From Desulfobacula sp. (lineage in GTDB: Bacteria > Desulfobacterota > Desulfobacteria > Desulfobacterales > Desulfobacteraceae), in assembly GCF_021107415.1 (NCBI RefSeq), contig NZ_JAIOSW010000331.1, positions 1 to 18,552 on the forward strand: a stretch of DNA of 18,552 bases, read 5' to 3'. Numbering within the stretch: position 1 is the stretch's first letter; every line of letters begins with the position of its first letter. Both the position numbers and the translations under genes were made by a program. Under the pieces are notes generated by a model. It worked only from the letters and a program-made list of their open reading frames with translations, was not told the DNA's origin and searched no databases. This document shows positions 5,019 to 18,375 of the stretch, piece after piece.

Positions 5019-5088
5019 TAAAGAGGGAAGAGGGCACTACCTTTTCCATGTCTGTCAATGGAAGGCAGTGCCAATCTCTTTTGTTTTT
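5019..5088. terminator. Bidirectional terminator between convergent operons
   Basis: A long imperfect hairpin pairs GGCACT..CCTTTTCCAT (from 5033) with ATGGAAGG.AGTGCC (to 5072). The outer flanks AAGAG and CTCTTTTGTTTTT give a T run on the plus strand, with A-rich sequence on the left for the minus strand. It lies between the kinase stop (5005) and the ACT gene stop (5087) and can end both operons. Confidence 0.75.
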
Positions 5089-5518
5089 ATAAATTGCAGA
5101 TTTCCTGATTGCTGATAACTTTAATATTTTTTTGTGCAAAAATTTTCAATGCTTTATCATGATCATCAAACCGAAAAATCATGATGGCATTTTTGCATTG
5201 CGGATTGGCAAATGCATACATGTATTCCACATTGACTTCATTTTCACAAAGTGGATCTAAAATGCCATTCAATCCACCGGGCTCATCTTTTACCTCAACG
5301 GCCATAACCTGGGTTTTCCCAACGGTAAACCCTTCTTTTTTCAATACTTTTTCTGCTTTTTCACTGTTATTCACAATTAAGCGCAATACACCAAAATCAG
5401 TTGTATCAGCAAGAGATAATGCTCTGATATTAACGTTGGCATCCCTTAAGATTGCGGTAACTTCAGCAAGCCGGCCTTCCTTGTTTTCAATAAATATGGA
5501 TATCTGTTCGACAAACAT
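5087..5518 (-). CDS. Tandem ACT domain protein
   Basis: A 143-aa protein made of two ACT domains, about residues 4-66 and 72-138. Both show the beta-alpha-beta layout with a glycine at the first loop (NKEGRLAEV and DEPGGLNGI). ACT domains bind amino acids and give allosteric control. Free-standing tandem ACT proteins of this size occur in anaerobes, often near amino-acid or CoA-thioester metabolism genes. The open frame extends upstream to 5662, but the ATG at 5518 is clearly right: AAAGGAGC lies just before it, and the extension would overlap the upstream gene. It starts 19 bp after the enoyl-CoA hydratase stop, so it is the last gene of the lapA-mutS operon. The ligand cannot be read from sequence. 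Confidence 0.9.
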   Translation of the reverse strand: MFVEQISIFIENKEGRLAEVTAILRDANVNIRALSLADTTDFGVLRLIVNNSEKAEKVLKKEGFTVGKTQVMAVEVKDEPGGLNGILDPLCENEVNVEYMYAFANPQCKNAIMIFRFDDHDKALKIFAQKNIKVISNQEICNL

Positions 5519-5537
5519 TAGGTTTTGCTCCTTTTGT

Positions 5538-6326
5538 CTAATAAAGTTCTCCTTTGAACACGGGTTTCCTTTTTTCAAGAAAGGCGTGGGTCCCTTCTTT
5601 TGCGTCTTCACTTGACATATTAAGGCCAAAGACGTCATTTTCAATTCTGCATCCGGTTTCAATATCTGTATTAAGACCGTTTTGAATGACTCCTTTTGCT
5701 GATCTCAGGGCCACTTTTCCCCTGGAAGCAATGAGGTTTGCAGTTTTTAACACTTCTTCCATGAGCTTGTCGTGTTCGATAATTTTGTTGACAATACCAT
5801 ATTCAAAGGCCTCCTGGGCTTTAATATTCTTTCCGGTAAAGATAAGTTCTTTGGCGCGGTTTACGCCTATACGCCTTGCCAGTCTCTGTGTTCCGCCAAA
5901 TCCGGGAATCAATCCCAGGGTTATTTCGGGCAGGCCGAAAAGGGCTTTGTCGGATGCATAGATAAAATCACAGCCAAGGGCAGCCTCTAACCCGCCACCC
6001 AAGGCAAATCCGTTTACAGCGGCAATGGCTGGGATGGGAAGATCTTCAATTTTTGAAAAAACCTTTTGCCCTTTTCGGGAAAAGCTTTTTCCTTCAAGAG
6101 GGTTCATTTTTACAAGTTCGGCAATATCGGCTCCTGCAACAAATGCTTTACCTCCACTACCTGTCAAGATAAGAACCCTTATATCCGTATTGTTTTTTAC
6201 CTGATCCAGTGCAAGGTCCAATTCATCAAAAAGGGCATTGTTAAGTGCATTTAAAGCTTTGGGCCGGTTAAAAAAAATAGTTGCAATAGGACTGTCGACT
6301 TCAAGAATAATGTTTTCAAAAGACAT
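5538..6326 (-). CDS. Enoyl-CoA hydratase/isomerase (crotonase) family protein
   Basis: A 262-aa crotonase of normal length. The CoA and oxyanion-hole region AFVAGADIAEL is at 61-71 and ALGGGLEAALGCD at 108-120. Both catalytic glutamates of true hydratases are present: E114 (rat E144) and E134 in FGLPEITLG (rat E164). PGFGGTQRL (141-149) also matches hydratases. It most likely adds water to trans-2-enoyl-CoA, perhaps crotonyl-CoA, in beta-oxidation or butyrate-type metabolism; the exact chain length is not readable. AAGGAG lies just before the ATG at 6326. It follows the amidase by 22 bp and precedes the ACT gene by 19 bp. There are no thiolase or acyl-CoA dehydrogenase genes beside it. Confidence 0.92.
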   Translation of the reverse strand: MSFENIILEVDSPIATIFFNRPKALNALNNALFDELDLALDQVKNNTDIRVLILTGSGGKAFVAGADIAELVKMNPLEGKSFSRKGQKVFSKIEDLPIPAIAAVNGFALGGGLEAALGCDFIYASDKALFGLPEITLGLIPGFGGTQRLARRIGVNRAKELIFTGKNIKAQEAFEYGIVNKIIEHDKLMEEVLKTANLIASRGKVALRSAKGVIQNGLNTDIETGCRIENDVFGLNMSSEDAKEGTHAFLEKRKPVFKGELY

Positions 6327-6348
6327 GATGATCTCCTTTACGTATTGG

Positions 6349-8109
6349 TTATAATTGTCTGGGATTTGTTGAATTTATATATTTTTCAACCCCATCGGTG
6401 ATGGTGTTGCAAATTGCTGTCTGATACGAATCACTCATGAGTCGTTTGCATTCTGTTTTGTTACTGATAAATCCAGTCTCAATCAGGATGGATGGCATCC
6501 TTGCGCCCAGCAGAACATAAAACGGTGCTTGCTTGACGCCTAGATTGTTGATCCCTGAATATTTTTTTTGCATTCCTTTTATAAAGGAATTTTGTACTAC
6601 ATTGGCAAGCCGGGTGGATTCTTCAATTTTTGCATGTTTCATTAAATCGCTTAAGATATATTCAAGGTCTGAAATATTTTTTTTCGATGTTGCATTCTCT
6701 CTGGCGGCAACGGCAATTGCCTGTTCATCGGTGGCAAGGTTTAAAATATAGGTTTCAATGCCCCGAAGACGTTTGTTTTTTGCCGCATTGCAGTGCAGGG
6801 ATATAAACAGATCCGCTCTCTTTGTATTGGCAATGGCAGTCCTTTCCTCAAGACTCAGTTTTTTATCGCTTGACCTTGTTAAGAGTACGGTGCATTTTAA
6901 GCGGTCTCTGAGGATCACAGCAAGTTTTTTAGCTATTTTTAGAACAATTTCTTTTTCCCAGACGTTTTTAAAATATCCCGGAGCCCCGGGATCAACGCCG
7001 CCATGCCCCGGATCAATGACAATTTTTCTAACGCCCAATGCAAACTGCCGCGCAATATCAGAGGATTTTAAATTGTCTGTTGTGATTCGGGAGATTTTAT
7101 CCGGTTTTCCGGGTTTGCCGGAGTCTGCAATGTTTTGACCGGAAGAAGAGACAGGCCCTCCATTAGACCCTTTTCCCCAGACATCAATGACAATTCTGAA
7201 CGGATCTTTTAAAGAAAATATCTTATAATTCTCAAAGGATTTGATATCGACTACAACCCGTACTGTATGGGGCAGATATTGTGCTGCCCGGGCCTGATTT
7301 AAAAGGTTGTCATTGATCTGGGTATGGTCGGCAACCCCTTTTCCCAGTCTTGATTGTTCTATATCAATATAGAGACGCTGAAAGGGTTTATTAATGCCGG
7401 GATCTTTTTTCAAAAGTCTGTGGGAATAATCCCTTTCGCTGTCGGCATTAACAACAATTCTGGTGTATTCCGGATTGGACCAGAATCTAAGATCTGTAAT
7501 TGTGGTGTCCTCTGGGAGACTCTTTTTTGATGAGGCAGGTTTTATTTCAACTGGCTTTTGATTTGTTGCTTCAATGGTTTTAATTGGTTTTTTACGGGTT
7601 TTTTTCTGGCTTAAAATAAATTTTTTAATAAGGACATCATTTTTTGTCAGTCTTTTCTTTGAGCTGATATGTTTGATTTTTTTTGCATAATAATCTGGCC
7701 GTATGTTTATGGATTTGAGTAAGGATCTGGCTCTGCCGGCGTAAGCGCTTTTGGGATATTTATTCCTGAGTCTTGCCAGAAGATCTGCGGCCTGATTCTT
7801 ATAGGTTTTTTTGCCGGATAATTTTGAAAGGGTTAAATAAAGCCGGGCTGCCTTATACATTCCTGCAGGCGCCCATGAACTTTCAGGATGAAGCCTGTAG
7901 ATGATTTCATACCTGCTGATACAATTAAACCATTCAGTCACCTTTTTTTGTTTGGCAGAAGACTGTCGAAGCTTTTTGTAGCAGGAATCTGCTATAAGGT
8001 ATTTTTGTTTTGCACTGTCGGCAAACCCGGTTGTTGTCAAAACAAAAATGCCTGTAAATATAATAGCAATGAAATATAGTGGCAGTATGGATGTCTTAAG
8101 CTTGGCCAT
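6349..8109 (-). CDS. N-acetylmuramoyl-L-alanine amidase (TPR-like, AMIN, Amidase_3)
   Basis: A 586-aa cell-wall hydrolase that would cut the MurNAc-L-Ala bond in the periplasm, as AmiC-type enzymes do at division. A hydrophobic N-terminal segment (8-28, ending TTGFADS) should export it. Residues 32-135 form helix pairs like TPR repeats (YxxAxxYL..., RNKYPKSAYAGRA), followed by a lysine-rich linker. The AMIN domain is about 203-312 and Amidase_3 about 362-578. Zinc ligands H369 (DPGHGG), E385 (EKEIVL) and H439 (SLHCNA) and catalytic E544 (LIETGF) are all present. The helix-repeat front makes it longer than AmiC. Its start lies 3 bp after the mutS stop with AGGA inside the mutS end, so translation is coupled. 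Confidence 0.95.
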   Translation of the reverse strand: MAKLKTSILPLYFIAIIFTGIFVLTTTGFADSAKQKYLIADSCYKKLRQSSAKQKKVTEWFNCISRYEIIYRLHPESSWAPAGMYKAARLYLTLSKLSGKKTYKNQAADLLARLRNKYPKSAYAGRARSLLKSINIRPDYYAKKIKHISSKKRLTKNDVLIKKFILSQKKTRKKPIKTIEATNQKPVEIKPASSKKSLPEDTTITDLRFWSNPEYTRIVVNADSERDYSHRLLKKDPGINKPFQRLYIDIEQSRLGKGVADHTQINDNLLNQARAAQYLPHTVRVVVDIKSFENYKIFSLKDPFRIVIDVWGKGSNGGPVSSSGQNIADSGKPGKPDKISRITTDNLKSSDIARQFALGVRKIVIDPGHGGVDPGAPGYFKNVWEKEIVLKIAKKLAVILRDRLKCTVLLTRSSDKKLSLEERTAIANTKRADLFISLHCNAAKNKRLRGIETYILNLATDEQAIAVAARENATSKKNISDLEYILSDLMKHAKIEESTRLANVVQNSFIKGMQKKYSGINNLGVKQAPFYVLLGARMPSILIETGFISNKTECKRLMSDSYQTAICNTITDGVEKYINSTNPRQL

Positions 8110-8112
8110 ATC

Positions 8113-10773
8113 CTATTTAATACTTTTTTGTTTTAAGTCATTTAACAAATTAATCGCTTCAAGGGGAGTCATACTTGAAATATCAATCTTTTCCAATATA
8201 TTTTTGATGGATTGTTCATTATGGTTAAATAATTCCATCTGATTGTCATCCTTTTCTTTTCTCTTTTTACCCTTTTTCCTGGGTCTTTTTGGTAGTGGTT
8301 TGGGGACATCCGAGTTGTTTTTGTCAATGTTGGATAATATATGTTTTGCATTGTTAATGACAATGTCCGGCATGCCGGCAAGCCTGGCAACCTGGATACC
8401 ATAGCTTTTATTGGTTCCGCCCTTAACCAGCCGTCGCAAAAACACAATATTATCATTGAATTCTTTGACGGCTATATTAAAGTTTTTGATTCTGGGTTTT
8501 GTCTCTTCTAATTTTGTCAATTCATGGTAGTGTGTGGCAAAAAGTGTTTTAACCCCTTTATTATTTAGATCATGAAGGTGTTCGGCAACTGCCCAGGCAA
8601 TGCTCATACCATCATAAGTGCTGGTTCCCCTTCCGATTTCATCAAGTATGATCAGACTTTTTTGTGTGGCATTATTAACGATATTGGCGGTTTCTTCCAT
8701 TTCCACCATGAATGTACTCTGGCCCGATGAGAGGTTGTCAAGGGCGCCTACCCGTGTAAATATTCTGTCCACAATGCCAAGAGATGCTTTTTGAGCAGGA
8801 ACGAATGATCCCATCTGGGTCATTAAGACGGTCAGGGCAACCTGCCTTAATACTGTTGACTTTCCTGCCATGTTGGGGCCGGTGATTAACAGGATCTGGT
8901 TCTCAACATCATCCATTTCAATGGAGTTGGGAACATAGCGTTCTCCTTTGATCAGTTTTTCTACCACAGGATGCCGTCCGTCTTCAATGGAAATGGTATT
9001 GTGTTCATTGATGACAGGTTTTGTATATCCATTTTCTGATGCTGCAAGGGCAAGCCCCTGAAGGACATCAATATTCGCAATAAAATCCGCCATTTTAAGA
9101 ATAAAATTTGCTTTTGAAATAACCTTGTCCCTGATTATGCAGAAAATTTTGTATTCCAGAGCATTTCGTTTATCCTGGGCATTCAATATGGTGGACTCAA
9201 CCTGTTTCATTTCATCGGTAATGAATCTTTCGGCATTCACAAGGGTCTGCTTCCTGATATAATGATCCGGAACCGAATTTGACTGACCTCTGGATACTTC
9301 GATAAAATAGCCGAAGACTTTATTATATTTAATCTTGAGAGAAGACAGTTTGGTTTTTTCTTTTTCCGTGGCCTCGGTTTTTGCAATCCATGATTTTCCA
9401 TCCCGTGAAATTAATAATAGTTCGTCCAGTTCAGGGTTATAACCATCATTAATTAAACCGCCTTCATTGAGCAGATGACCCGCATTTTCCCTGATGGCTT
9501 CTTCGATCAAATCGGCAAGTGAACCCAGCTCTTTTAAAATCATTTCCTGATCTTCAAGATCTTTTCCATTGAGTAAAGGGCTTTTAAACAGACAAAGTTC
9601 CTTAAAAAGAAGGGGAAGTCTTTTTAAAGAGTTTTTAAGAGCGATCATATCCCTGGCATTCCCCTGGCCCATGGAAATTTTGCTGCCAAGACGTTCAAGG
9701 TCATATACTGATTTTAAGTGGCTAATGATCAATTGATGAATATGGGAAGCCTTTGTGATTTCTTCTATGCAATCCAGGCGTTGGCAGATTTTATCTTTAT
9801 CAATCAGCGGATATCTGACCCAGGTCTTGATCAGTCTTGATCCCATGGCAGTGACTGTCCGATCCAGCACATGGATTAGGGTTCCTTTTTTGTCCAGGGT
9901 TTGTATATTGGTAAGAATCTCAAGATTTTTGCAGGACCTGTCATCTATTACCATAAAATTTTTCAGGTCATAGGGTGTGATTTGAAAAATGTGGTTGATA
10001 TCCTGCATCTGGGTGTCCTGAACATAAGAGAGGATGGCGCCCGCGGCAGAAATGGATGCAAAAAGATTCTCTGCACCGAATCCCTCAAGGCTCCTGGTTT
10101 TAAATTTACTTAAAAGCCTTTCCTTTGCCTCTTCAACATGAAAATTAGTTTTATCAAGATAGGTGATTTGTCTTCCGCTAAAAGCGTGCCGGATATGCCT
10201 ATAAATCGGGTCTTTTTCAAAATTGGACGGTAAAAGGATTTCTTTGGGATCAACCTTTAAAGCCTCATCAATCAGTTCCAAGGGTATTTTTGACTGTCTG
10301 CTTTGCACCTGGGTGGTTTTAAAGGTCCCGGTTGATATATCAAGATAGGCAATGCCGGCAACGTCCCTTGTTTTTGACAGGGCTAAAAGAAAGTTGTTGG
10401 TGGTTTTATCCAGTAGTTCTTCATTTAAAATCATGCCCGGGGTTATGACCCGGATCACTTGCCTTTTTACCAACCCCTTGGTTACCGCAGCATCTTCCAT
10501 CTGCTCGCACACGGCAACTTTGCATCCGTTTTTAATGAGTTTGGCAATATAATTGTCAGCAGCCCGAAAGGGAATCCCGCACATGGGAATTGGGGCGGCA
10601 TCATTTTTATTTCTGGAGGTTAAGGCGATTTCCAGAATAGAAGCTGCCTTTTTTGCATCCTCAAGGAACATTTCATAAAAATCCCCCATTCGGTAAAACA
10701 AAATTGTATCTTTATATGATTCTTTGATGGCCAGGTATTGCTCCATCATGGGAGTATTTTTTTTTTTGTTCAT
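8113..10773 (-). CDS. mutS: DNA mismatch repair protein MutS
   Basis: An 886-aa MutS, full length. The mismatch-reading F-x-E motif is GDFYEMF with F32 and E34. The ATPase part has Walker A GPNMAGKST (632-640), signature LSSGQST (681-687), Walker B LIILDE (707-712) and FATHYHEL (745-752). A lysine-rich linker precedes QMELF (845-849), a good beta-clamp binding motif, and a C-terminal tetramerisation-type helix. The start matches family N-termini because TPMM with EQYL at 7-14 aligns with E. coli MutS. No clear Shine-Dalgarno precedes the ATG at 10773. Codons 3-6 sit in an uninterrupted A11 tract (10757-10767), a slippage-prone site within the repair gene itself. It follows the lapA-like gene by 23 bp; mutL is not in the window. 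Confidence 0.99.
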   Translation of the reverse strand: MNKKKNTPMMEQYLAIKESYKDTILFYRMGDFYEMFLEDAKKAASILEIALTSRNKNDAAPIPMCGIPFRAADNYIAKLIKNGCKVAVCEQMEDAAVTKGLVKRQVIRVITPGMILNEELLDKTTNNFLLALSKTRDVAGIAYLDISTGTFKTTQVQSRQSKIPLELIDEALKVDPKEILLPSNFEKDPIYRHIRHAFSGRQITYLDKTNFHVEEAKERLLSKFKTRSLEGFGAENLFASISAAGAILSYVQDTQMQDINHIFQITPYDLKNFMVIDDRSCKNLEILTNIQTLDKKGTLIHVLDRTVTAMGSRLIKTWVRYPLIDKDKICQRLDCIEEITKASHIHQLIISHLKSVYDLERLGSKISMGQGNARDMIALKNSLKRLPLLFKELCLFKSPLLNGKDLEDQEMILKELGSLADLIEEAIRENAGHLLNEGGLINDGYNPELDELLLISRDGKSWIAKTEATEKEKTKLSSLKIKYNKVFGYFIEVSRGQSNSVPDHYIRKQTLVNAERFITDEMKQVESTILNAQDKRNALEYKIFCIIRDKVISKANFILKMADFIANIDVLQGLALAASENGYTKPVINEHNTISIEDGRHPVVEKLIKGERYVPNSIEMDDVENQILLITGPNMAGKSTVLRQVALTVLMTQMGSFVPAQKASLGIVDRIFTRVGALDNLSSGQSTFMVEMEETANIVNNATQKSLIILDEIGRGTSTYDGMSIAWAVAEHLHDLNNKGVKTLFATHYHELTKLEETKPRIKNFNIAVKEFNDNIVFLRRLVKGGTNKSYGIQVARLAGMPDIVINNAKHILSNIDKNNSDVPKPLPKRPRKKGKKRKEKDDNQMELFNHNEQSIKNILEKIDISSMTPLEAINLLNDLKQKSIK

Positions 10774-10796
10774 GTGCTAGCTTTGTCTAAGCAGAA

Positions 10797-11273
10797 TCAA
10801 TCAGCAGTGCCGGATTTATCATCCTTTTCATGGTTGTTTTCAGACTGATCCGATACAGACTCTTTTGGTGCAGGCTGGTCCGGTATAGATTGGTCTGGTG
10901 CAGACTGTTCGGCAATCGTTTTTTCTTCCAGCTGTCTTTTAATATAAGGATCATGCTGAAACACTTCGAGTTCAGTCTTTAAGGTATTCACCTGTTCTTT
11001 AAGGGATGTGATGGCAACATTTTTTGTCTTGATTTCTTTGCTTAATTTAAAACTTACCACAAACCCTTTGAGCCCGGCCAGAATAAGGCCCAAAAGAAAG
11101 CAAATTCCAAAGTAGGCAATATTTTGAATTTCCGGTATTGTCCAGTTCCAGGAAGCAACCTTAAGATCAAATTTTAATGCTTTAGTTGCCATAAAATAAT
11201 CTAAATTCTGGTAAATTAAGATCCCAAGCAAACCTAAAATAATCAGCCACAAAAGAAGTTTAATTTTTTTCAT
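10797..11273 (-). CDS. LapA-like (DUF1049) small inner membrane protein
   Basis: A 158-aa membrane protein with TM1 at about 4-22 and TM2 at about 51-70, followed by a cytoplasmic coiled coil (about 76-108). This is the layout of the LapA/YciS family, whose E. coli member helps control lipopolysaccharide assembly with LapB. The C-terminal tail (about 118-158) is a low-complexity repeat of Ser/Gln/Pro/Asp/Glu units such as APDQS, IPDQP and SVSDQ, which is longer than in E. coli. GGAG lies 8 nt before the ATG at 11273. It is the first gene of the mutS operon behind a good promoter. No lapB is next to it. Family call is based on topology and size more than on a strict motif. Confidence 0.75.
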   Translation of the reverse strand: MKKIKLLLWLIILGLLGILIYQNLDYFMATKALKFDLKVASWNWTIPEIQNIAYFGICFLLGLILAGLKGFVVSFKLSKEIKTKNVAITSLKEQVNTLKTELEVFQHDPYIKRQLEEKTIAEQSAPDQSIPDQPAPKESVSDQSENNHEKDDKSGTAD

Positions 11274-11322
11274 TTATCCACTCCATATTCCATTTTGTAT
11301 TGTAAACGCTTAAGTTTTTGTG

Positions 11323-11351
11323 ATCATAGATTAAATTTTCTTTTTTTTCAA
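11323..11351 (-). promoter_or_regulatory. Sigma70-type promoter of the lapA-mutS-amidase-ech-ACT operon
   Basis: Read on the minus strand, TTGAAA (11351-11346) is followed after exactly 17 nt by TATGAT (11328-11323), 50 bp before the lapA-like start codon. The spacer is AT-rich with an A8 run. It is the best sigma70 match in the window and the only one seen for the five-gene operon. Confidence 0.7.
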
Positions 11352-11389
11352 TTGTTCTTTTAATAATAAACAGCCTAAAATACTCATGA

Positions 11390-11418
11390 TTAGGGACAAA
11401 TTTCAAATTTGCCCCTAA
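11390..11418 (-). terminator. Hairpin at the end of the M23 gene
   Basis: TTAGGGACAAATTT (11390-11403) pairs with AAATTTGCCCCTAA (11405-11418) with one mismatch, and the stem contains the M23 stop codon. Such a tight 14-bp stem would stop or protect transcripts of the upstream group. It has no U tract, so it may be an mRNA 3' end protector rather than a classical terminator. It separates the two minus-strand operons. Confidence 0.5.
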
Positions 11419-11993
11419 AGGGAAACCGGATGAATCAGATTAACTTCAAGATTTTTTGAAAACAGGTCCCAATTGAGATGTTCCGGCGGCACCTTTTTTA
11501 AGACTTCAAAGCAGGAAAAATGAAGATGGGGCGGCAATTGTGGATTTCTATTAGTATCACACACCCTTGCAATGACATCCTTTTTTTTGATGATATGGCC
11601 CACTTTTAAATTCTTTTCAGGGATGATATGGGCATATGCAAAAATAATTCGCCTATTGAAAACTATTGAATTCTCATGTTCCACCACAAGGGTCTGACCC
11701 AGAAAATCATCACAGATATTTAAAATAATGCCGTCGTCCATGGCCGGAACCTTAATGGAATCATCAAAGCTATGTATTTCATCCGGATTCGTTCTGTAAT
11801 AAGTAATGTCTATTCCTTCATGGGGACAATGTCGAAATTTGAAATCCCCCCACCATTTATCCTTACTTGAAAACAGCATTCCACAATGGAACAGCCATTG
11901 AACTTTTCGGTTATTTCCAAGGCCATTGGCCTGACCGTTGACCAGACCATTAACCTGGGAAATAGCCTGAAGATAGTCTGAAAATTTACTCAT
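11415..11993 (-). CDS. M23 (LytM-type) peptidase domain protein without signal peptide
   Basis: A 192-aa protein with the LytM zinc signature: HEGID with H58 and D62, AYAHI with H122, and PHLHF with H156 and H158. LytM enzymes cut peptide cross-links in peptidoglycan. All expected ligands are present, so it may be active. Unlike most family members it has no signal peptide or membrane anchor; the N-terminus carries a short repeat rich in Asn-Gly (VNGLVNGQANGLGN, 14-27). It may leave the cell by another route or be a cytoplasmic carbohydrate- or lipid-binding relative. Its ATG overlaps the TAA of the Cache-HAMP gene by one base (TAATG) and has no Shine-Dalgarno, so translation is coupled to that receptor gene. 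Confidence 0.87.
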   Translation of the reverse strand: MSKFSDYLQAISQVNGLVNGQANGLGNNRKVQWLFHCGMLFSSKDKWWGDFKFRHCPHEGIDITYYRTNPDEIHSFDDSIKVPAMDDGIILNICDDFLGQTLVVEHENSIVFNRRIIFAYAHIIPEKNLKVGHIIKKKDVIARVCDTNRNPQLPPHLHFSCFEVLKKVPPEHLNWDLFSKNLEVNLIHPVSL

Positions 11994-13084
11994 TATTTTT
12001 TGTATAGCCTTTGCATGAATAGCTTTACACTCTGCTGGAGCCTTGATATGGATTCCGCTAACACTGCCAGCTCATCTTTTGATCGAATTTCAATCAAGGC
12101 ATCTAGATCTCCAAGGCTGATCCGGTCTGTCATTTCGGACAGGTATTTAATATTAGCTGTCAATCTACCGCCAAAAATAAATACAATAATGGCAATAATA
12201 AGTATAATAACAGAACTCAGAATGGCACTTTTAATAGTTTCAGCTTTTGCAATTGCCCTGCTCTCCCTTTCCAGGCGTTGCATAGGTTCGGTAAAGTCAT
12301 CCATATAGGTTGTGCTGGCAATGTTAAACCGGGTTCCCGTGACATTAACGCAGGCCATATATTTGTTCTTGAAAGATTTGTCTTTTTCCTGCCATTTATA
12401 GTATCCCTTTGACGGTTGTTCACTTTTTACCGCCGTTAAAATGTTCCAGAATTCAGGAAAATTTACTCCTAAGGGTTTCTTAAGCTTGGCCATATCATCC
12501 AATGCCGGAGCACAGATGTTGGGTCTGATATGGGCCCTGGTTCGCCATTTTCCATCGGATTCTTTTCCATATAAGGCAGTATATCCCTTTTTTCCAACTT
12601 TTTGAACGGCAATCTGCTGGAACTGCTGATCAGTCATAAACTGTTCTTTTGTAAGCTCCGGATGTGCTTCTATATACAGTTTTACCTGCTTTGCAACAGA
12701 CCGGGCAGTTTTCATGATATCATTTTCTGCCATTTCTTTGATAATTTGGGTTCCCTGTTTTCCAAATCGGTCTGCTGTTTTATTCAGTTGCAAAATCAGA
12801 TAATAAGCCTGCAGGCCAAAAATGCCAATCAGGATAATCAAAAAGAAAAATAATTTAAACCGGATACCGAATCCCTTGATTTTAGTTTCAGCTGCATCAG
12901 CAGGTTCATGGCTGACTTCCGGTTGTAAGGTGAATGCCTGAGAAGATGCATCTGAGATAATTTGGTCCTTATGGATGCTTATATGATTACCACATGTTTT
13001 GCATTTAAATCTGACTCTTGGAGCGATTATTTTGTTTGGATCAATTTTATAAGTGGCACCACATTTGTTACATGTTATATTCAT
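11993..13084 (-). CDS. Zinc-ribbon / Cache / HAMP membrane receptor without output domain
   Basis: A 363-aa protein. Residues 1-36 are an MJ0042-type zinc ribbon (C5, C8, C28, C31), then an acidic linker. TM1 is about 75-99, a periplasmic region about 100-285, TM2 about 287-305 and a HAMP domain about 306-358. The protein then ends at LYKK. The periplasmic part resembles a single Cache ligand-binding domain (VGKKGYTALY at 163-172, FPEFWNIL, GYYKW, ASTTYMDDF at 256-264), such as precedes chemoreceptors and kinases. There is no kinase, methyl-accepting or cyclase output, so the finger at the N-terminus or a partner on the HAMP must carry the signal. AAAGGAG precedes the ATG at 13084. The ligand is unknown. 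Confidence 0.85.
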   Translation of the reverse strand: MNITCNKCGATYKIDPNKIIAPRVRFKCKTCGNHISIHKDQIISDASSQAFTLQPEVSHEPADAAETKIKGFGIRFKLFFFLIILIGIFGLQAYYLILQLNKTADRFGKQGTQIIKEMAENDIMKTARSVAKQVKLYIEAHPELTKEQFMTDQQFQQIAVQKVGKKGYTALYGKESDGKWRTRAHIRPNICAPALDDMAKLKKPLGVNFPEFWNILTAVKSEQPSKGYYKWQEKDKSFKNKYMACVNVTGTRFNIASTTYMDDFTEPMQRLERESRAIAKAETIKSAILSSVIILIIAIIVFIFGGRLTANIKYLSEMTDRISLGDLDALIEIRSKDELAVLAESISRLQQSVKLFMQRLYKK

Positions 13085-13180
13085 ACTATATCTCCTTTAG
13101 TAGTGAATCACCAAGGGGGATTGTCCCCATTCCATCTATACGCATTGCAAATTCATCAGACGGCTGCCCTGTTTCTTCCC

Positions 13181-13627
13181 TTAGTATTGTTTTATGAGTC
13201 CCAGCATTATCTTTTGAAATTGTTGTTTCCCCGCTGGGGAGTCAATTTCTGTTGCCACCTTTTCCACAAGGCTGTACAGCATTTTATGAGGGAAATTATC
13301 TCTGGATCTGTTAAGTTCTTCTATCTTGTCGTCTAAAACCAGTGGAGCAATCGGGCCGATGCATTTGGAAAGTTCTTTTTCAAGTTTTCCCCAGAAAAAG
13401 GAGGGTATTTCAACAGAAGGCGGTGACTGGATTTGGATTATCTTAATAGCTTTTTTAGCCTGTAGTTTTTCCAGAACAGCATTAAGCTGACCCGCATTTA
13501 CATTAAATTTTGATTTGAGTTCGTCCAGGTCAGGATATTTATTAAACATGGCAATAACAGACCACTCCGAAGGTGTCAGTGTTATTGATTCCTTCACCGG
13601 CAATAGCTTTATTGATTGCTTGGTCAT
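13181..13627 (-). CDS. Winged-helix-like protein with IGPIA-type C-terminal domain
   Basis: A 148-aa cytoplasmic protein. Residues 17-66 look like a winged-helix fold of the type that follows DUF4388 domains (TPSEWSVIAMF, DLDELKSKF, LEKLQAKKAIKII). Residues 75-128 resemble the small C-terminal domain with a conserved IGP(I/M)A core found in some bacterial signalling proteins (CIGPIAPLV at 89-97). It has no clear catalytic residues. AAGGAGG stands just before the ATG at 13627, and the upstream gene stops 12 bp away. It may be an adaptor or regulator working with the DUF4388 protein two genes upstream. Both domain calls are from pattern memory and are moderate. An out-of-frame protein-like tail follows its stop (see findings). 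Confidence 0.65.
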   Translation of the reverse strand: MTKQSIKLLPVKESITLTPSEWSVIAMFNKYPDLDELKSKFNVNAGQLNAVLEKLQAKKAIKIIQIQSPPSVEIPSFFWGKLEKELSKCIGPIAPLVLDDKIEELNRSRDNFPHKMLYSLVEKVATEIDSPAGKQQFQKIMLGLIKQY

Positions 13628-13639
13628 ATGTATCCCTCC

Positions 13640-14002
13640 TTAACGGTCAAAAAATGATGTAAGAAATTTGGGGAATTTGCCCTGTTTATTCGAGTCTTCA
13701 ATAAAAATATCAAATTCCATTTTTACCTGAGACACACTGATATTATTGGTGCATTCACAGATGTAAATTGTTTCTCTATTTTTATAAAGATAAATATATT
13801 CTTCTTGGGTGTACAATAGCAGGTGAGAGCCTGGAGCACTCTTTTTGTGTTGAGCAATGATTTTATCAAAGTATAGTTTTTTTTCCTTTTTAATATTCGG
13901 GAAATAGGTGGTTTTGTTATTGTTGTGGATAATAACGCTTTTTATAAAATGATTTGCTTCCACAAAATTAAATGCCGGTGATCGGTTAGTCTTTGATTTC
14001 AT
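13640..14002 (-). CDS. Hypothetical protein in the DUF4388 gene group
   Basis: A 120-aa protein I do not recognise. It is rich in Lys, Asn, Ile and aromatic residues, has no signal peptide or membrane helix, and its middle alternates strands (HLLLYTQEEYIYLYKN at 60-75, ETIYICECT at 77-85), so a beta-rich fold is likely. The pattern could suit a small ligand-binding or roadblock-like fold, but I cannot show this. The ATG at 14002 has only a weak GGCAG upstream. The gene lies 93 bp after the DUF4388 stop and 12 bp before the winged-helix-like gene, whose Shine-Dalgarno is just past its stop. Shared strand and spacing support a common operon. Confidence 0.6.
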   Translation of the reverse strand: MKSKTNRSPAFNFVEANHFIKSVIIHNNNKTTYFPNIKKEKKLYFDKIIAQHKKSAPGSHLLLYTQEEYIYLYKNRETIYICECTNNISVSQVKMEFDIFIEDSNKQGKFPKFLTSFFDR

Positions 14003-14095
14003 AATCTGCCAATATATTTGAATGTTCGTTTTTTCCAGTCATGATATTAAGGAAGCGTGAATGAAAATTAGTATAATAAGTATCAAACCTGGGAA

Positions 14096-14662
14096 TCATT
14101 GGAGAATATCCTTACTTTTCATAAACATTAATAGATCATTTGTAAGTATTTTTTTTTCGAACAACAGTTCTATCCGCGCATGTATATTTTTGTCCAAATA
14201 TACGACCATAAAATTCCTGCCGTCAAAGGCTTCAAAATATTTAATATTGAAAATTTCAGGACATGAAAAAAAAGAATGCCGATATTCATAAATAATTACA
14301 TGATCGGTATTGTATTTAATAGAAAACATAGCCCCTATTTTATCGATGTATTCTCTGGCCTCATCTTTGCATTTAGAACAATCGATCAAAAGAAAATTGA
14401 TATCCACATTGATATTTTTTTCAGGCAAAATAATTCTTTCATCGAATTTAAAGTCCAGCTTTTCCAGTAACGCCAGCTGCCTTACAGCATCAATGCCTTT
14501 GGTTCCTAAAAAATCTGCATAAACAATACTGCCGTTTTCAAATCCGATTTTACCGACCACCGCTTTTTCCCTACTGAATGCAATAGTGCCGCTGCTGCTG
14601 TCATTATAGCAGACCTGTATCAGACTGGTGATTGAAAAGGTTTTAAGCGTTCCGGCAAACAT
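14096..14662 (-). CDS. DUF4388 (PATAN) domain protein
   Basis: A 188-aa protein. Residues 1-100 match DUF4388: GTLKTFSITSLIQVCYN at the front, then SGTIAF, GKIGFENGSIVYADFLGTKG (38-57) and the helix AVRQLALLEKLDFKFD, with the usual tail in which a helix begins INVDINFLLID. DUF4388/PATAN domains occur in bacterial signalling proteins and in PatA-type regulators, often with response-regulator or MglB-like parts. Residues 101-188 are of unknown fold and have no known output motif. The ATG at 14662 has AGAGGT about 10 nt upstream. It is first gene after the -24/-12 promoter, so the group may be sigma54-controlled. Confidence 0.8.
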   Translation of the reverse strand: MFAGTLKTFSITSLIQVCYNDSSSGTIAFSREKAVVGKIGFENGSIVYADFLGTKGIDAVRQLALLEKLDFKFDERIILPEKNINVDINFLLIDCSKCKDEAREYIDKIGAMFSIKYNTDHVIIYEYRHSFFSCPEIFNIKYFEAFDGRNFMVVYLDKNIHARIELLFEKKILTNDLLMFMKSKDILQ

Positions 14663-14967
14663 GATTTTATCAAACCTCTATTGTCTTATAATCCCCTTGA
14701 GATGATGAAGAATCTTTTAATTTTCTTCTATTTTTTATTTTGATTTTAAGTAATTGTCTGTTCAGAATATTCTCCATATAGGTTTGAATGATTCAGTTTA
14801 TGGTTTTATTAATTCTAAAACCTATTAACCTGTTTAATTATAAGGAGTTTTGAAGCAAATCTTATGCCATAACAGGAACGATGGATTTATAGGGAAAAGG
14901 CCTCATTTTCTTGGTATGGAAGCTATTGCTTTCTCTAAATTGGGACAATTATTGTTTGATATTTGAC
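14663..14967. other. Non-coding interval holding the DUF4388 leader and promoter
   Basis: Very AT-rich DNA between the DUF4388 start and the CooT terminator. Apart from the sigma54-like promoter and a leader of about 180 nt with several A/T runs, I see no gene, RNA or strong hairpin in it. Confidence 0.5.
14854..14869 (-). promoter_or_regulatory. Candidate sigma54 (-24/-12) promoter
   Basis: On the minus strand this reads TGGCATAAGATTTGCT. It keeps the invariant GG and GC with exactly 10 nt between, and matches TGGCAC-G-N4-TTGC[A/T] in 10 of 12 defined positions. It lies about 190 bp before the DUF4388 start and downstream of the CooT terminator, so it would drive the DUF4388 to M23 group. 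The activator and its binding site are not identified. A TATAAT overlaps nearby but lacks a -35 box at proper distance. Confidence 0.55.
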
Positions 14968-15005
14968 AAAAAAAGAACAGGCTGTACGAAAATTTCACAC
15001 AGCCT
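14968..15005 (-). terminator. Intrinsic terminator of the phosphoesterase-CooT unit
   Basis: On the minus strand AGGCTGT (15005-14999) pairs with ACAGCCT (14985-14979), followed by GTTC and a T7 run (14974-14968). It lies 54 bp after the CooT stop. Confidence 0.85.
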
Positions 15006-15058
15006 TTATATAAGAATATGGCGCTTGTCTTTTTACTGACAATCGAAAAACACATTCA

Positions 15059-15250
15059 TTACAGGGCTTTTAAGATGATTTTATGTCCCATAAGATTGAT
15101 GTCTTCAATAATGGCCTTGACTTCCATACTTTCTCCCAATAGGCCTTTTAAAAGAAATGTATTTTCTGCAACTGGTGTTATGGCTGCCACATTTTCCATG
15201 ATTAGTTTTTCATCATCATCTTTTCTTAAATATACATTGGATTCACACAT
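15059..15250 (-). CDS. CooT-type small nickel-binding protein
   Basis: A 63-aa protein that begins MCESNVYL, the hallmark of the CooT family, and continues with the family's small beta-barrel pattern (MENVAAITPV, LLKGLLGESMEVKAII, GHKIILKAL). Rhodospirillum rubrum CooT is a dimer that binds Ni(II) near Cys2 and helps load carbon monoxide dehydrogenase. C2 is present here. The frame is open further upstream to 15280, but the ATG at 15250 is chosen because Cys2 defines the family and AAAGGA lies before it through an A-rich spacer. It starts 19 bp after the phosphoesterase stop. No cooS or hydrogenase gene is in the window, so the nickel client is unknown. Confidence 0.87.
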   Translation of the reverse strand: MCESNVYLRKDDDEKLIMENVAAITPVAENTFLLKGLLGESMEVKAIIEDINLMGHKIILKAL

Positions 15251-15269
15251 TTTTTTTTCCTTTATTAGT

Positions 15270-15920
15270 TTATCTGTCATTTATTACCATTTTTATCTTT
15301 AAAGGCAACCCTTTACTGCAATCAATGATCGCACCGCCAAATTTTTTATTCATTGCACAATTGACAACCAGAATGTTTTTAAAAAATTGATATCCTGCCT
15401 GTTCATGGATATGGCCGCATAACACCATTAATGGCGGGTGGTTTTCAATCAATGTTTTTAAGTGGAAACTTCCGGCACTGAACCTGTTTCCCACTTTATC
15501 ACAAATACCCCTGGGTGGCGGATGGACAACCAGGATTGTCTCCGGGGTGATGCTATGTTTAAGGCTATCAAGGCGTTGAGTCTCCTTGAAACATATTTTT
15601 GAAAGAAATGGCAAAGGTATGGTGCCGTTAAGGCCAAGAAACCGGCCATCCGGATATGTCACAGGTATATGGTTCAAAAGACTTGTGTTTTTCTGTCCCA
15701 CCAAAAGCCGTTCAACACGTTTCAGATCCGAGTTTCCCCGGATACCAAAAATGGGGATATCAATATCCTTTAGCTGTTCAAAAGTTTTCAACGGGGAAAT
15801 AAAGTTTGTGATATCCCCGGCAAGCACAAGAATATCAGGAGCTTCCAGCGAGATAACAGCCTTTATTCTTTCTATCTTCTCAGTCTTGCCGTGAATGTCG
15901 GCTACAGCATAGATCCGCAT
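15270..15920 (-). CDS. Calcineurin-like metallophosphoesterase
   Basis: A 216-aa cytoplasmic enzyme with the whole dimetal motif set: VADIHG with D8 and H10, LAGDI with D36, GIRGNSD with N63, VVHPPP with H133, and CGHIH with H170 and H172. The size and motif spacing suit the compact YfcE/MJ0936-like phosphodiesterases, but the substrate cannot be told. GGAATAA stands just before the ATG at 15920. The remnant of the integron integrase ends only 29 bp upstream on the same strand, so the native promoter may have been lost or replaced. CooT follows after 19 bp and the pair ends at an intrinsic terminator. Confidence 0.92.
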   Translation of the reverse strand: MRIYAVADIHGKTEKIERIKAVISLEAPDILVLAGDITNFISPLKTFEQLKDIDIPIFGIRGNSDLKRVERLLVGQKNTSLLNHIPVTYPDGRFLGLNGTIPLPFLSKICFKETQRLDSLKHSITPETILVVHPPPRGICDKVGNRFSAGSFHLKTLIENHPPLMVLCGHIHEQAGYQFFKNILVVNCAMNKKFGGAIIDCSKGLPLKIKMVINDR

Positions 15921-15949
15921 CTTTATTCCATATTAATCAATTTTTAACT

Positions 15950-16645
15950 TTAAACATATTGCCACCGGGTTTCCATGGCAGCATTATTATACTTTCCGGC
16001 TAAGGCACCTGGCATGTACACCTCCCCGAAACCCTCTTCAAGATCCAGGTGATGCAATACCTTTACCTGTTTTATATGCCTTTTCAGTTCAAGAATTATC
16101 GGCTCGGCCAGGATGGTGCTTCGCCATTTTTCCCCCTTACCCAGCACATGTATCCTTTTACGGTCAAAATCTACGTCCTTGATTCTCAGCCGCACACACT
16201 CCATTAGTCGCAAGCCGGAACCATACAGGAGCTTTGCCATCAATGCGTGGGTCCTCTCAATATACTGGAAAAACTTCTTGATTTCCTCTTTACCGAGTAC
16301 AGTGGGCAGTTTGGGGTTTTTTTTTGAACGAATGGGTTGAATCTTTCTGTCCAAAGGGATATCGAGCACCTCACGATAAAGAAAGACAAGGGCGTTGAGA
16401 GCCTGGCGCTGGGTGGATGCTGACACCTTTCGTTTGACTGCCAGATCTGACAAAAAACGCTCGATATGATGGGAACTGAGATCCCGGGGATGGGTTTTAC
16501 CGTCGAAGAAACGGATATAACGCAATATCCATTGACAATAGGTTTGTTCAGTGCGGTAAGCGTAATGATGGTACCGCAGAACCTCGCGGATCTGGTCCAT
16601 TAATTTTAACTTTGGGTCGGGATAAAATTTTGGTTGACTTTCCAT
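15950..16645 (-). pseudogene. intI: Truncated integron integrase (IntI), catalytic C-terminus missing
   Basis: A 231-aa open frame that is the N-terminal two thirds of an integron tyrosine recombinase (full members are about 320 aa). The SAM-like DNA-binding domain runs about 10-105. GSGLRLMECVRLRI (143-156) holds the first catalytic Arg, and the beta region has GKGEKWR. The integron-specific insert is plain: LDLEEGFGEVYMP, then ALAGKYNNAA and WQYV. The frame stops at TAA right after WQYV, where FPS normally follows, so the HxxR, H/W and nucleophilic Tyr boxes are absent. It can no longer recombine. No clear Shine-Dalgarno precedes the ATG at 16645. It points away from the cassette-like gene at 16845, the normal integron arrangement. 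Confidence 0.92.
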
Positions 16646-16844
16646 ATTAGAAGCGATTATACCATGATAAGTGGAAAATTGGAACTTAAAAGGTCACAAA
16701 TGGAAAAGATTTCCATGTTTTAAACTTAATTATTAGTGATAGGTGGAAAATCTTGAAATCTATTACAGTCAATAGCATGGAAAATATCCACTTATTAACA
16801 CTGTTCAGAGTGTCATAATAACATAGTGAGCTTTGAGAATTGAA
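16646..16844. promoter_or_regulatory. intI-cassette spacer: likely attI region with repeats
   Basis: This 199-bp interval between the divergent integrase and the cassette gene is where attI and the cassette promoter Pc are expected. It contains a near-perfect direct repeat (TGATAAGTGGAAAAT at 16665-16679, TGATAGGTGGAAAAT at 16737-16751), an inverted copy (TCCACTTAT at 16787-16795) and a 7-bp hairpin ATGGAAA-AGA-TTTCCAT (16700-16716). A weak GTT core at 16803 could be the crossover point. I see no convincing Pc promoter. Confidence 0.4.
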
Positions 16845-17672
16845 ATGAAAAGAGCAATAGAAATAATACAGGAAAGAATCGATAGCTTATCCTTCTTTGA
16901 AGGTAATTTTCAAGAATGGATGGACCATACCATTATGCTATTATCAAAATTGTTTGGTGATAGCCATGAAAGCTTAAATCAATTAAAAAAAATAATTGAA
17001 AACCTTGATGTAGAATATATGCTTGACAGTATAGCCTCTGATCTATACAGGCAAGACGAATATAATGAACTTAAAGAAAGAGTAATTCAATTATTTAAAG
17101 TTTGCATAAACGAACTTGAAATTGTGGAAAGCACAAGAACTGATAGTGGAGAGCCATCCGTAATTGATGTCAATAGATTTAAAACTATTCTTTTAGAAAA
17201 AGTTCCAGAATGTGATCCAGTAATCATTGATTTTATCACTGAGGCGAGCAAATGTATCTATTATGCGAATTCTCTACTCGCTGCAACTTTTATGATAGGA
17301 GCCGCATCCGAAAAAGCCATATTGCTTCTTATTGAAAAATTTGCTGAAAATATTCAAAACGTAAGGAATCAAGAAAAATTTAGAAATAGAGTTAATAATC
17401 GGATGATTTCTATTAAATATGACGAATTCATAAAGTCATATTCAGGTTGTAAAAATAAACCAACGGATCCAATTTTATCCCAAGATCTAAATATAATAAT
17501 TGGGAATACCTTTCAATTCTGCCGAATTACCAGAAATCAGGTAGGCCATCCGAATATTGTACCTGAACCAAACCAAGACATAGTGGTTGCCAATCTTGGT
17601 CATATTGTCGTTTATATTGAAAGGATATATGGATTAATGAAACATTTTGAGGAGAATGGAGTTGTTTTATGA
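16845..17672 (+). CDS. Integron cassette protein with HEPN-like R-N-x3-H motif, function unknown
   Basis: A 275-aa helical protein, counted from ATG 16845. Residues about 15-45 (FQEWMDHTIMLLSKLFG) resemble a helical domain that often precedes HEPN-type regions in defence and toxin proteins. Residues about 128-270 look like a HEPN/DUF4145-like bundle: LLAATFMIGAASEKAILLLI (144-163), then RNQVGH with R230 and H235 before a last long helix. The R-N-x3-H pattern is the catalytic motif of HEPN ribonucleases. It has no signal peptide or transmembrane segment. A TTG at 16833 extends the frame by four codons, but neither start has a good Shine-Dalgarno. It is the only gene between intI and the attC-like site and is AT-rich. 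The domain call is from pattern memory; RNase activity is inferred. Confidence 0.75.
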   Translation: MKRAIEIIQERIDSLSFFEGNFQEWMDHTIMLLSKLFGDSHESLNQLKKIIENLDVEYMLDSIASDLYRQDEYNELKERVIQLFKVCINELEIVESTRTDSGEPSVIDVNRFKTILLEKVPECDPVIIDFITEASKCIYYANSLLAATFMIGAASEKAILLLIEKFAENIQNVRNQEKFRNRVNNRMISIKYDEFIKSYSGCKNKPTDPILSQDLNIIIGNTFQFCRITRNQVGHPNIVPEPNQDIVVANLGHIVVYIERIYGLMKHFEENGVVL

Positions 17673-17711
17673 GCGGATTGAAGCGACAGAATTACAATGT
17701 CATCAAATGAC

Positions 17712-17840
17712 TCCGAACCAGGCGTTTAACTCAGACGGCTAAAACCGGGGCATTTTTTATAAATTCGCAGTTAACCGCTTTTTGAGCTTACCATAAAATC
17801 TTAGAAATATATCTGCCGCTGGTTAGCTTGATCGTTACAT
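17712..17840 (+). repeat. attC-like integron recombination site
   Basis: A 129-bp imperfect palindrome starting 39 bp after the cassette gene stop. The left end TCCGAAC (17712-17718) approximates R'' and the right end GTTACAT (17834-17840) approximates R' (GTTRRRY, one or two misfits). Inside, TAAC-T-CAG-A-CGGC (17727-17739) pairs with GCCG-CTG-GTTA (17815-17825), leaving two extrahelical bases on one arm, as folded attC sites do. The right half GGTTAGCTTGATCGTTA looks like the 3' half of many environmental attC sites. Its place and orientation are as expected. Confidence 0.6.
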
Positions 17841-17916: not shown

Positions 17917-18056
17917 GTTATTTGACCGGAGAACGGGGGAGCAATGCCGCAAGATTTACGCGAGTCATGTCATTTGCAAAAAGCGCAAATGCCACGCCTG
18001 TCATAAATCTTGCAATGGCCTTGCTCCCCCCTTATCTCCTAGGCAATTGCAATAAC
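17917..18056. repeat. 140-bp imperfect palindrome
   Basis: The left arm (17917-17977, GTTATT ... GGGGGAGCAA ... GCAAGATTTA ... CATTTGC) and right arm (17985-18056, GCAAATG ... TAAATCTTGC ... TTGCTCCCCC ... AATAAC) are inverted copies with scattered mismatches around a 7-nt centre. The outer ends are GTT/AAC, opposite to attC polarity, so it is not a second attC. It may be a MITE-like or other repeat element, or an end structure of the IS91 remnant that follows. Confidence 0.65.
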
Positions 18057-18088
18057 AAGCAGTAAGACAGAATCGTCCATTATTAAAT

Positions 18089-18375
18089 ATGAATAAAACT
18101 CAAGACAGTCATTCATAACTTCCAGACAAGCCGGAATCAAGCCCTGATATTGGGGACATCTTCAGGGAATAAAATACCGGCTGCATCCCCGGCAATACAA
18201 GGTCATGTATGACATTGAACACTGCCGGTGCGGTGAATTCGGAACCTACTGGACAATCTGTGATGCCTGCGGCCACATGGAGAAAGGGTATAATTCGTGC
18301 AGGAACCGACACTGCCCCGGATGCAACAACATTGCAAGACGCAGGTGGATTACCCGATCCTGTTATGGAACATGA
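18089..18375 (+). pseudogene. IS91-family transposase, broken N-terminal fragment
   Basis: The zinc-binding N-terminal region of an IS91-type rolling-circle transposase is readable in pieces. After an ATG at 18089 there is a stop at 18116, then DIFRE (18155-18169) at which the frame shifts. From about 18172 the frame gives KYRLHPRQYKVMYDIEHC, CDACGH, SCRNRHCPGC and ARRRWI, typical of the family with its cysteine/histidine finger. The frame stops at 18373 and the expected LLPVPYYHVVFTLP does not follow. The HUH catalytic part is absent from the window. It marks decay of a mobile element at the far edge of the integron. Confidence 0.75.

Follow-up and report, generated by a model that had tools for sequence, protein, structure and literature searches.

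Towards one end of the window, the whole stretch of 18,552 nucleotides that was analysed, from the sulfate reducer Desulfobacula sp., lie a calcineurin-like phosphoesterase gene, a shortened integron integrase gene (intI), an attI region, a gene cassette with its attC site, and the left end of an IS91-family element (Table 1). A first-pass annotation, made from the letters alone, had read this order as a decayed chromosomal integron, composed of an integrase with its diagnostic insert that stops at WQYV, before the HxxR and Tyr boxes, a divergent spacer with repeats, one gene in the reverse orientation to intI, and an attC-like palindrome after that gene. Each of these features was recovered in the analysis described here, the orientation directly, as the cassette gene is read from the forward strand and intI from the reverse. 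Related loci were the best 80 of those from 192 relatives, taken from species genomes with close integrases.

Table 1. Features at the integron locus and in the adjoining part of the window.
Feature	Position	Strand	Evidence
Open reading frames in the stretch of about 3 kb without a match in L002	11993-13084, 13181-13627, 13640-14002, 14096-14662	- (all)	
Calcineurin-like phosphoesterase gene, chromosomal neighbour of the integron	15270-15920	-	PF00149, 54.2 bits
24-nt AT-rich filler in place of the intI end	15928-15951	.	Comparison of the window with L002
intI, integron integrase ending after WQYV, without HxxR and Tyr boxes	15950-16645	-	TIGR02249, 260.2 bits
attI region with its repeats and the crossover GTT (16803-16805)	16646-16805	.	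End of relatives' similarity; alignment with 12 relatives
Integrated gene cassette, attI crossover to attC crossover	16804-17834	+	Bounds deduced from attI GTT and attC R' GTTACAT
Cassette open reading frame, 275 aa, helical N-terminal part and probable HEPN-fold C-terminal domain, R230-N231-xxx-H235	16845-17672	+	
attC: R'' TCCGAAC (17712-17718), L''/L' stem, long variable part, R' GTTACAT (17834-17840)	17712-17840	+	24.6 bits
IS91-family 5' end, palindrome 17929-18036 and start of transposase zinc finger	17922-18352	+	NF033538, 57.5 bits; PF14319, 56.9 bits

The integrase gene, its deletion junction and attI

The intI reading frame encodes 231 amino acids and ends in ...METRWQYV. In a profile search, it covered positions 1-217 of the 315 of TIGR02249 and fell 5 bits below the cut-off of 265 because its C-terminus is missing, and with it a third of the profile. 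Six Xer-type profiles stopped at residues 192-199, an archaeal XerA/integron profile stopped at residue 193, and a DNA-invertase profile covered residues 136-179 only. TIGR02249 and NF011946, both of integron integrases, were the only profiles to reach residue 231, and hence the integron-specific insert is present. The protein is 90% identical to an intact integrase of 331 amino acids from Desulfobacula sp. (P0002), and alignment with intact relatives placed HTLRHSFAT and YTHVMD, the HxxR and Tyr boxes, beyond WQYV. Both are missing from the window's protein, whose catalytic set as a tyrosine recombinase is incomplete; the integron is therefore a decayed one. Given the chemistry of tyrosine recombinases, DNA cutting should be beyond the truncated protein. 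The same end point is seen outside this one assembly, in P0001, a non-identical protein from a 1,210-base ENA contig in which a single residue is substituted (D17N).

In an integron integrase from a Desulfobacterium MAG (P0069), likeness to the intact enzymes is lost after ...AAMENRW, three residues before the window's break; from these two sequences, breaks may recur where the integron-specific insert ends. A plasmid collection gave one 72-bp match only, to another integron integrase, a phage collection gave no match, and no relative was found among viral contigs.

A full-length intI at the same place was found in a sister locus, L002 (Desulfobacula sp. CSMAG_2491, NZ_JAUWQB010000015.1), which is syntenic with the window at the DNA level. 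The two align at 86% over window positions 5033-11993, at 83% over the phosphoesterase stretch (15043-15927), and with 89% DNA identity across the part of intI and attI that both have (15952-16805). The end of the complete intI of L002 abuts the phosphoesterase gene, the product of which is 80% identical to that of the window, and direct comparison showed 301 nt of this intI end (L002 10695-10995) to be replaced in the window by the 24-nt filler (Table 1). A template for the filler was sought within the window and none was close (best, 14 of 18). Among the best 80 of the 192 relatives' loci, the phosphoesterase was detected by tblastn in L002 only; as 79 of these 80 loci extend at least 700 nt beyond intI, the place is one common to the window and L002, and not to relatives generally. 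The identity to L002, together with housekeeping genes in the window, points to a Desulfobacula-like host and a chromosomal location. About 3 kb of the window (11994-15042) has no match in L002, in which the two flanking matches overlap at 11866-11882.

The loss of the intI end appears to have been recent, a reading that the first-pass annotation had named as an alternative to selection. The remaining 231 codons hold no stop and no frameshift, and the nonsynonymous and synonymous codon changes unique to each sequence number 3 and 7 in the window, compared to 9 and 14 in L001 and 14 and 23 in L002, both of which have an intact gene. Over these shared codons, dN/dS was 0.18 between the window and L001, 0.17 between the window and L002, and 0.17 between L001 and L002. 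That the window has so few changes of its own argues for a recent loss and not for selection on the remaining frame.

The spacer on the other side of intI was assigned to attI from the point at which relatives cease to resemble the window. Among the best 80 of the 192 relatives' loci, DNA similarity ends within 16790-16815 in 20; loci in which it ends elsewhere, or that have no match there, were left out of this count, and two of the 20 (L013 and L014), in which the end of similarity is the end of the contig, were set apart. In the other 18, similarity ends exactly at 16805 in 13 and within 16803-16806 in 16, coinciding with the GTT of attI/attC recombination, so that the site both lies beside intI and has a crossover point. 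Alignment of the 160 nt before the crossover with 12 relatives revealed conserved AATAAGTGGAAA-type repeats, which are the repeats noted earlier in the spacer and represent putative IntI binding sites; an inverted form of them lies within the core site TTTCCACTTATTAAcActGTT. The contigs of L013 and L014 stop exactly at the crossover GTT, which is what assembly breaks caused by variable first cassettes would produce.

The attC site and the IS91-family remnant

An attC was first read by hand at about 17725-17828, with R'' GTTTAAC and R' GTTAGCT, and was replaced after comparison with relatives and with a model, as it has no unpaired spacer. A first stem scan gave no site in the window at the threshold set for it, and the attCs of relatives also escaped it. 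A simple stem scan of the cassette side of related loci gave 35 candidates in 234,977 bases, compared to five in 646,809 bases of the other side. Four of the 35 were left out (L041:1463 and L058:9796 as attI-like, L015:675 as a near-duplicate and L037:153 as having another stem), L031:2857 was shortened, and four sites from a looser scan of 30 loci were added, which restored the number to 35; both L062 sequences were then dropped as misaligned. The remaining 33 attCs of relatives, with the window excluded, were used to build a covariance model, R1. The named structure was kept in 86% of the cells of this training set compared to 69% after shuffling and no more than 38% after sliding, a figure that is not independent proof, given that the training sites were chosen by stem score, which favours those that fold well.

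With filters off, R1 matched the window at the site listed in Table 1 with an E-value of 5.9e-4 in 18,552 bases. The next best match in the window scored 10.4 bits and noise on L002, also with filters off, reached 10.6-13.1 bits, so that the attC-like palindrome proposed by the first-pass annotation stands clear of noise. Applied with default filters to the best 80 of the 192 relatives' loci (961 kb), the model gave 124 matches at E <= 10, distributed over 44 of the 80 loci. All 124, comprising the 33 training sites and 91 others, shared the strand of the cassettes and lay 5' of intI. The window's site is near the low end of these scores and would rank 106th of 125. Like the first stem scan, the simple one did not list it, and the covariance model alone detected it. 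A scan of the window with Rfam, which to our knowledge holds no attC family, gave no match at gathering scores.

The model alignment names 13 pairs for the window's attC, and all of them are standard; the model's four outermost R pairs are outside these 13, and two of the four were flagged as non-standard. In spite of this, the site is predicted to fold poorly. The canonical fold of the bottom strand was calculated at -5.0 kcal/mol compared to -12.6 kcal/mol for the best fold, and each of the 13 named pairs had a probability of 0.00-0.06 in the bottom-strand ensemble. The expected number of L-stem pairs was 0.77, the lowest of 34 when set against the 33 training sites (5.0-14.9). Because that stem-picked set favours well-folding sites, all 19 matches scoring 24.2-29.9 bits were added to the comparison; these gave 0.89-13.8, the window again being the lowest (of 20), with two of the 19 close to it (0.89 and 1.29).

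Beyond the attC, an IS91-family remnant begins at about 17922, 81 nt past the site. Matches starting at 17920-17926 were found in 11 loci, in which the left end is like TTTACCGGAGAACGGGGG and the flanks are unlike. The remnant resembles the IS91-family transposon (NF033538) in having the left-end palindrome and the first part of the transposase zinc finger, and differs from it in that the first 430 bp or so alone remain, as a separate insertion outside the integron; similarity stops at 18352 and the remainder of the element is absent. The palindrome at 17929-18036 was itself considered as an attC and ruled out as part of this end. A palindrome of about 120 bp from the IS91 end occurs at 85-89% identity in L113, L116, L118, L119 and L120, with matches that do not reach the transposase, and these copies are perhaps a non-autonomous element.

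The cassette protein

The cassette protein resembles HEPN-domain proteins (HepT, Csm6 and AF0298) in one motif: R230, N231 and H235 do not vary across 55 sequences, namely that of the window and those of 54 of 101 relatives, conforming to the Rx4-6H of HEPN. Its C-terminal domain probably adopts the HEPN fold, and the protein is probably an HEPN-type RNase of the defence or toxin kind, an assignment made from the structure model and the motif, the latter lying where that model is least confident (residues 231-236, pLDDT < 50). It differs from the known HEPN-domain proteins in giving no significant match to Pfam or to PDB sequences, and Foldseek on the model returned no significant HEPN match. 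The N-terminal part, TBP/DUF3378-like in some relatives, is PDC-S35-like and helical in the window's protein, where it gave a weak match only to PADLOC PDC-S35 (residues 3-99 to positions 5-103 of 264, 19.2 bits, E 1.9e-4). Assignment of the protein to PDC-S35 was rejected, as the match is partial and does not extend over the whole model, and BLASTP detected no significant similarity to the PDC-S35 protein of L004. One homologue, P0121, has 87% identity from end to end and was the only sequence recovered when residues 1-102 served as sole query. The protein had no match in plasmids, nor in 86 genomes of the family, a search run without a positive control, such that its empty answer alone shows nothing. 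Promoter prediction gave five compared to 6.6 expected from shuffles, and hence no excess.

Fate of the platform after loss of the integrase

Several of the features that mark a chromosomal integron are found at the locus, namely the integron-specific insert, an attI with its crossover, an attC downstream in the cassette orientation, and a cassette gene reading away from intI. Its identity as a decayed chromosomal integron is well supported by the intact intI of L002, the deletion junction, attI and attC. It is very probable that the locus represents a sedentary chromosomal integron in which intI was inactivated recently, cassette exchange by its own integrase was lost, and the platform is eroding at both ends. 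Judging from L002, the ancestor of the window's lineage would have carried a complete intI, an attI and attC cassettes beside the phosphoesterase gene. The last 100 or so codons of intI, including the HxxR and Tyr boxes, were removed by a deletion of roughly 300 bp, of which the 24-nt filler marks the visible junction, after which the cassette at attI would no longer be exchanged by the integron's own integrase. The cassette retained, adjoining attI, carries one gene, predicted to encode a probable HEPN-type RNase, and an IS91-family element inserted just past its attC and persists as a remnant. It is the attC, recognisable but predicted to fold poorly, together with this insertion that would make the erosion one of both ends.

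Whether the cassette was kept by selection on its gene, as a defence or toxin gene that is useful or addictive, and not by historical accident, is less clear, and we consider selection plausible but somewhat doubtful. Its reading frame of 275 codons is open, RNxxxH is invariant among relatives, and P0121 has remained similar along its entire length. Against this, one sequence of the locus was compared and the loss of intI is so recent that an unselected frame would still be open. The first-pass annotation had taken the preservation of a lone cassette to suggest selection or a recent loss, and the argument for selection is not supported: the stretch past the attC is interrupted by the IS91-family remnant and then by the end of the window, 712 nt past the site, and the one retained cassette is therefore only what fits in the window.

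A second alternative is a platform that can still recombine, its attC, and perhaps its attI, being used in trans by a different integron integrase of the cell. Integrases usually favour their own attI and the window's attC is predicted to fold poorly, both of which make this unlikely, even though the genome of L002 encodes at least one further integrase (57% identical) and one or more integron integrase matches at E <= 1e-40 occur in 39 of 86 genomes of the family. Exogenous IntIs may, according to one report, use attC clusters that lack intI, in trans or after DNA uptake (PMC9668308). With regard to the earlier statement that the platform is frozen, the loss of the HxxR and Tyr boxes was confirmed, but the conclusion drawn from it has to be tempered by the possibility of such trans action; a frozen platform still appears likely.

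Retention of the truncated integrase as a DNA-binding regulator or blocker of attI/attC would accord with a frame that has no lesion beyond the truncation and unique changes that are mostly synonymous, but few changes are expected anyway if the deletion is recent, and we regard this as very unlikely. Even less probable is an assembly error as the cause of the truncation; the window is one sequence only, but the end point recurs in P0001 and synteny with L002 extends to both flanks. The absence of any integron, with a Xer- or IS91-associated recombinase lying beside a chance palindrome, can be practically dismissed in spite of the nearby IS91-family fragment, in view of the integron-specific insert, the attI boundary exact to the crossover, an attC matched by a model not trained on the window, and the clean strand and side bias of that model.

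Decay of this kind is real and ordinary, and is well known from Xanthomonas. Integrons with an inactivated intI are described as common in that genus in two studies (PMC12444791, PMC8618304), and the first of these states that strain groups sharing an intI lesion usually have common arrays (PMC12444791). As in the window, the Xanthomonas integrons are chromosomal with intI truncated or lost, and their arrays are presented in that study as more stable after the loss of intI; they differ in belonging to another phylum, in lying mostly beside ilvD, and in being drawn from hundreds of genomes (PMC12444791), compared to one sequence with one cassette in view here. Integrons have been detected in Desulfobacterota, as another paper indicates (PMC9668308). 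Our literature search found no paper on an integron together with Desulfobacula, and none joining integron gene cassettes, defense systems and Desulfobacterota. The L002 integron shares with that of the window its place beside the phosphoesterase gene and the close similarity of intI and attI, and differs in its intact intI. With one integron intact and the other freshly broken, and both occupying one place in closely related bacteria, the two provide a before-and-after pair away from Vibrio and Xanthomonas, the usual models, with which the fate of cassettes, attC and expression after the death of an integrase can be studied.

The first cassettes of this pair, Gabija in L002 and the probable HEPN protein in the window, fit the view of integrons as stores of defence genes. 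One paper states that integrons express cassettes best next to attI and that cassettes with phage-resistance functions are known (PMC8618304). A broader reading would have the window's cassette be an unnamed single-gene anti-phage effector, an HEPN RNase with a swappable N-terminal part, the integrons of the Desulfobacterota group be defence stores, and the dead integron fix one defence gene in the chromosome; this is offered as speculation, and we think it rather improbable as a whole.

The first cassette of L002 holds a complete two-gene Gabija pair (6050-9841, reverse strand; GajA 734 bits, GajB 783 bits) followed by a strong attC (52.9 bits), and next to it is a protein of 353 amino acids, residues 12-131 of which match an Aga_REase model, with a doubtful attC (13.1 bits). 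In L004, the first cassettes (7739-9819, reverse strand) encode a PDC-S35/CAP12-TIR protein, a ThsB-like TIR protein and an 8xMP membrane protein, with a BrnT-like toxin further along; PADLOC matched two of the 10 scanned cassette-side proteins of L004 and L001 at E <= 0.001.
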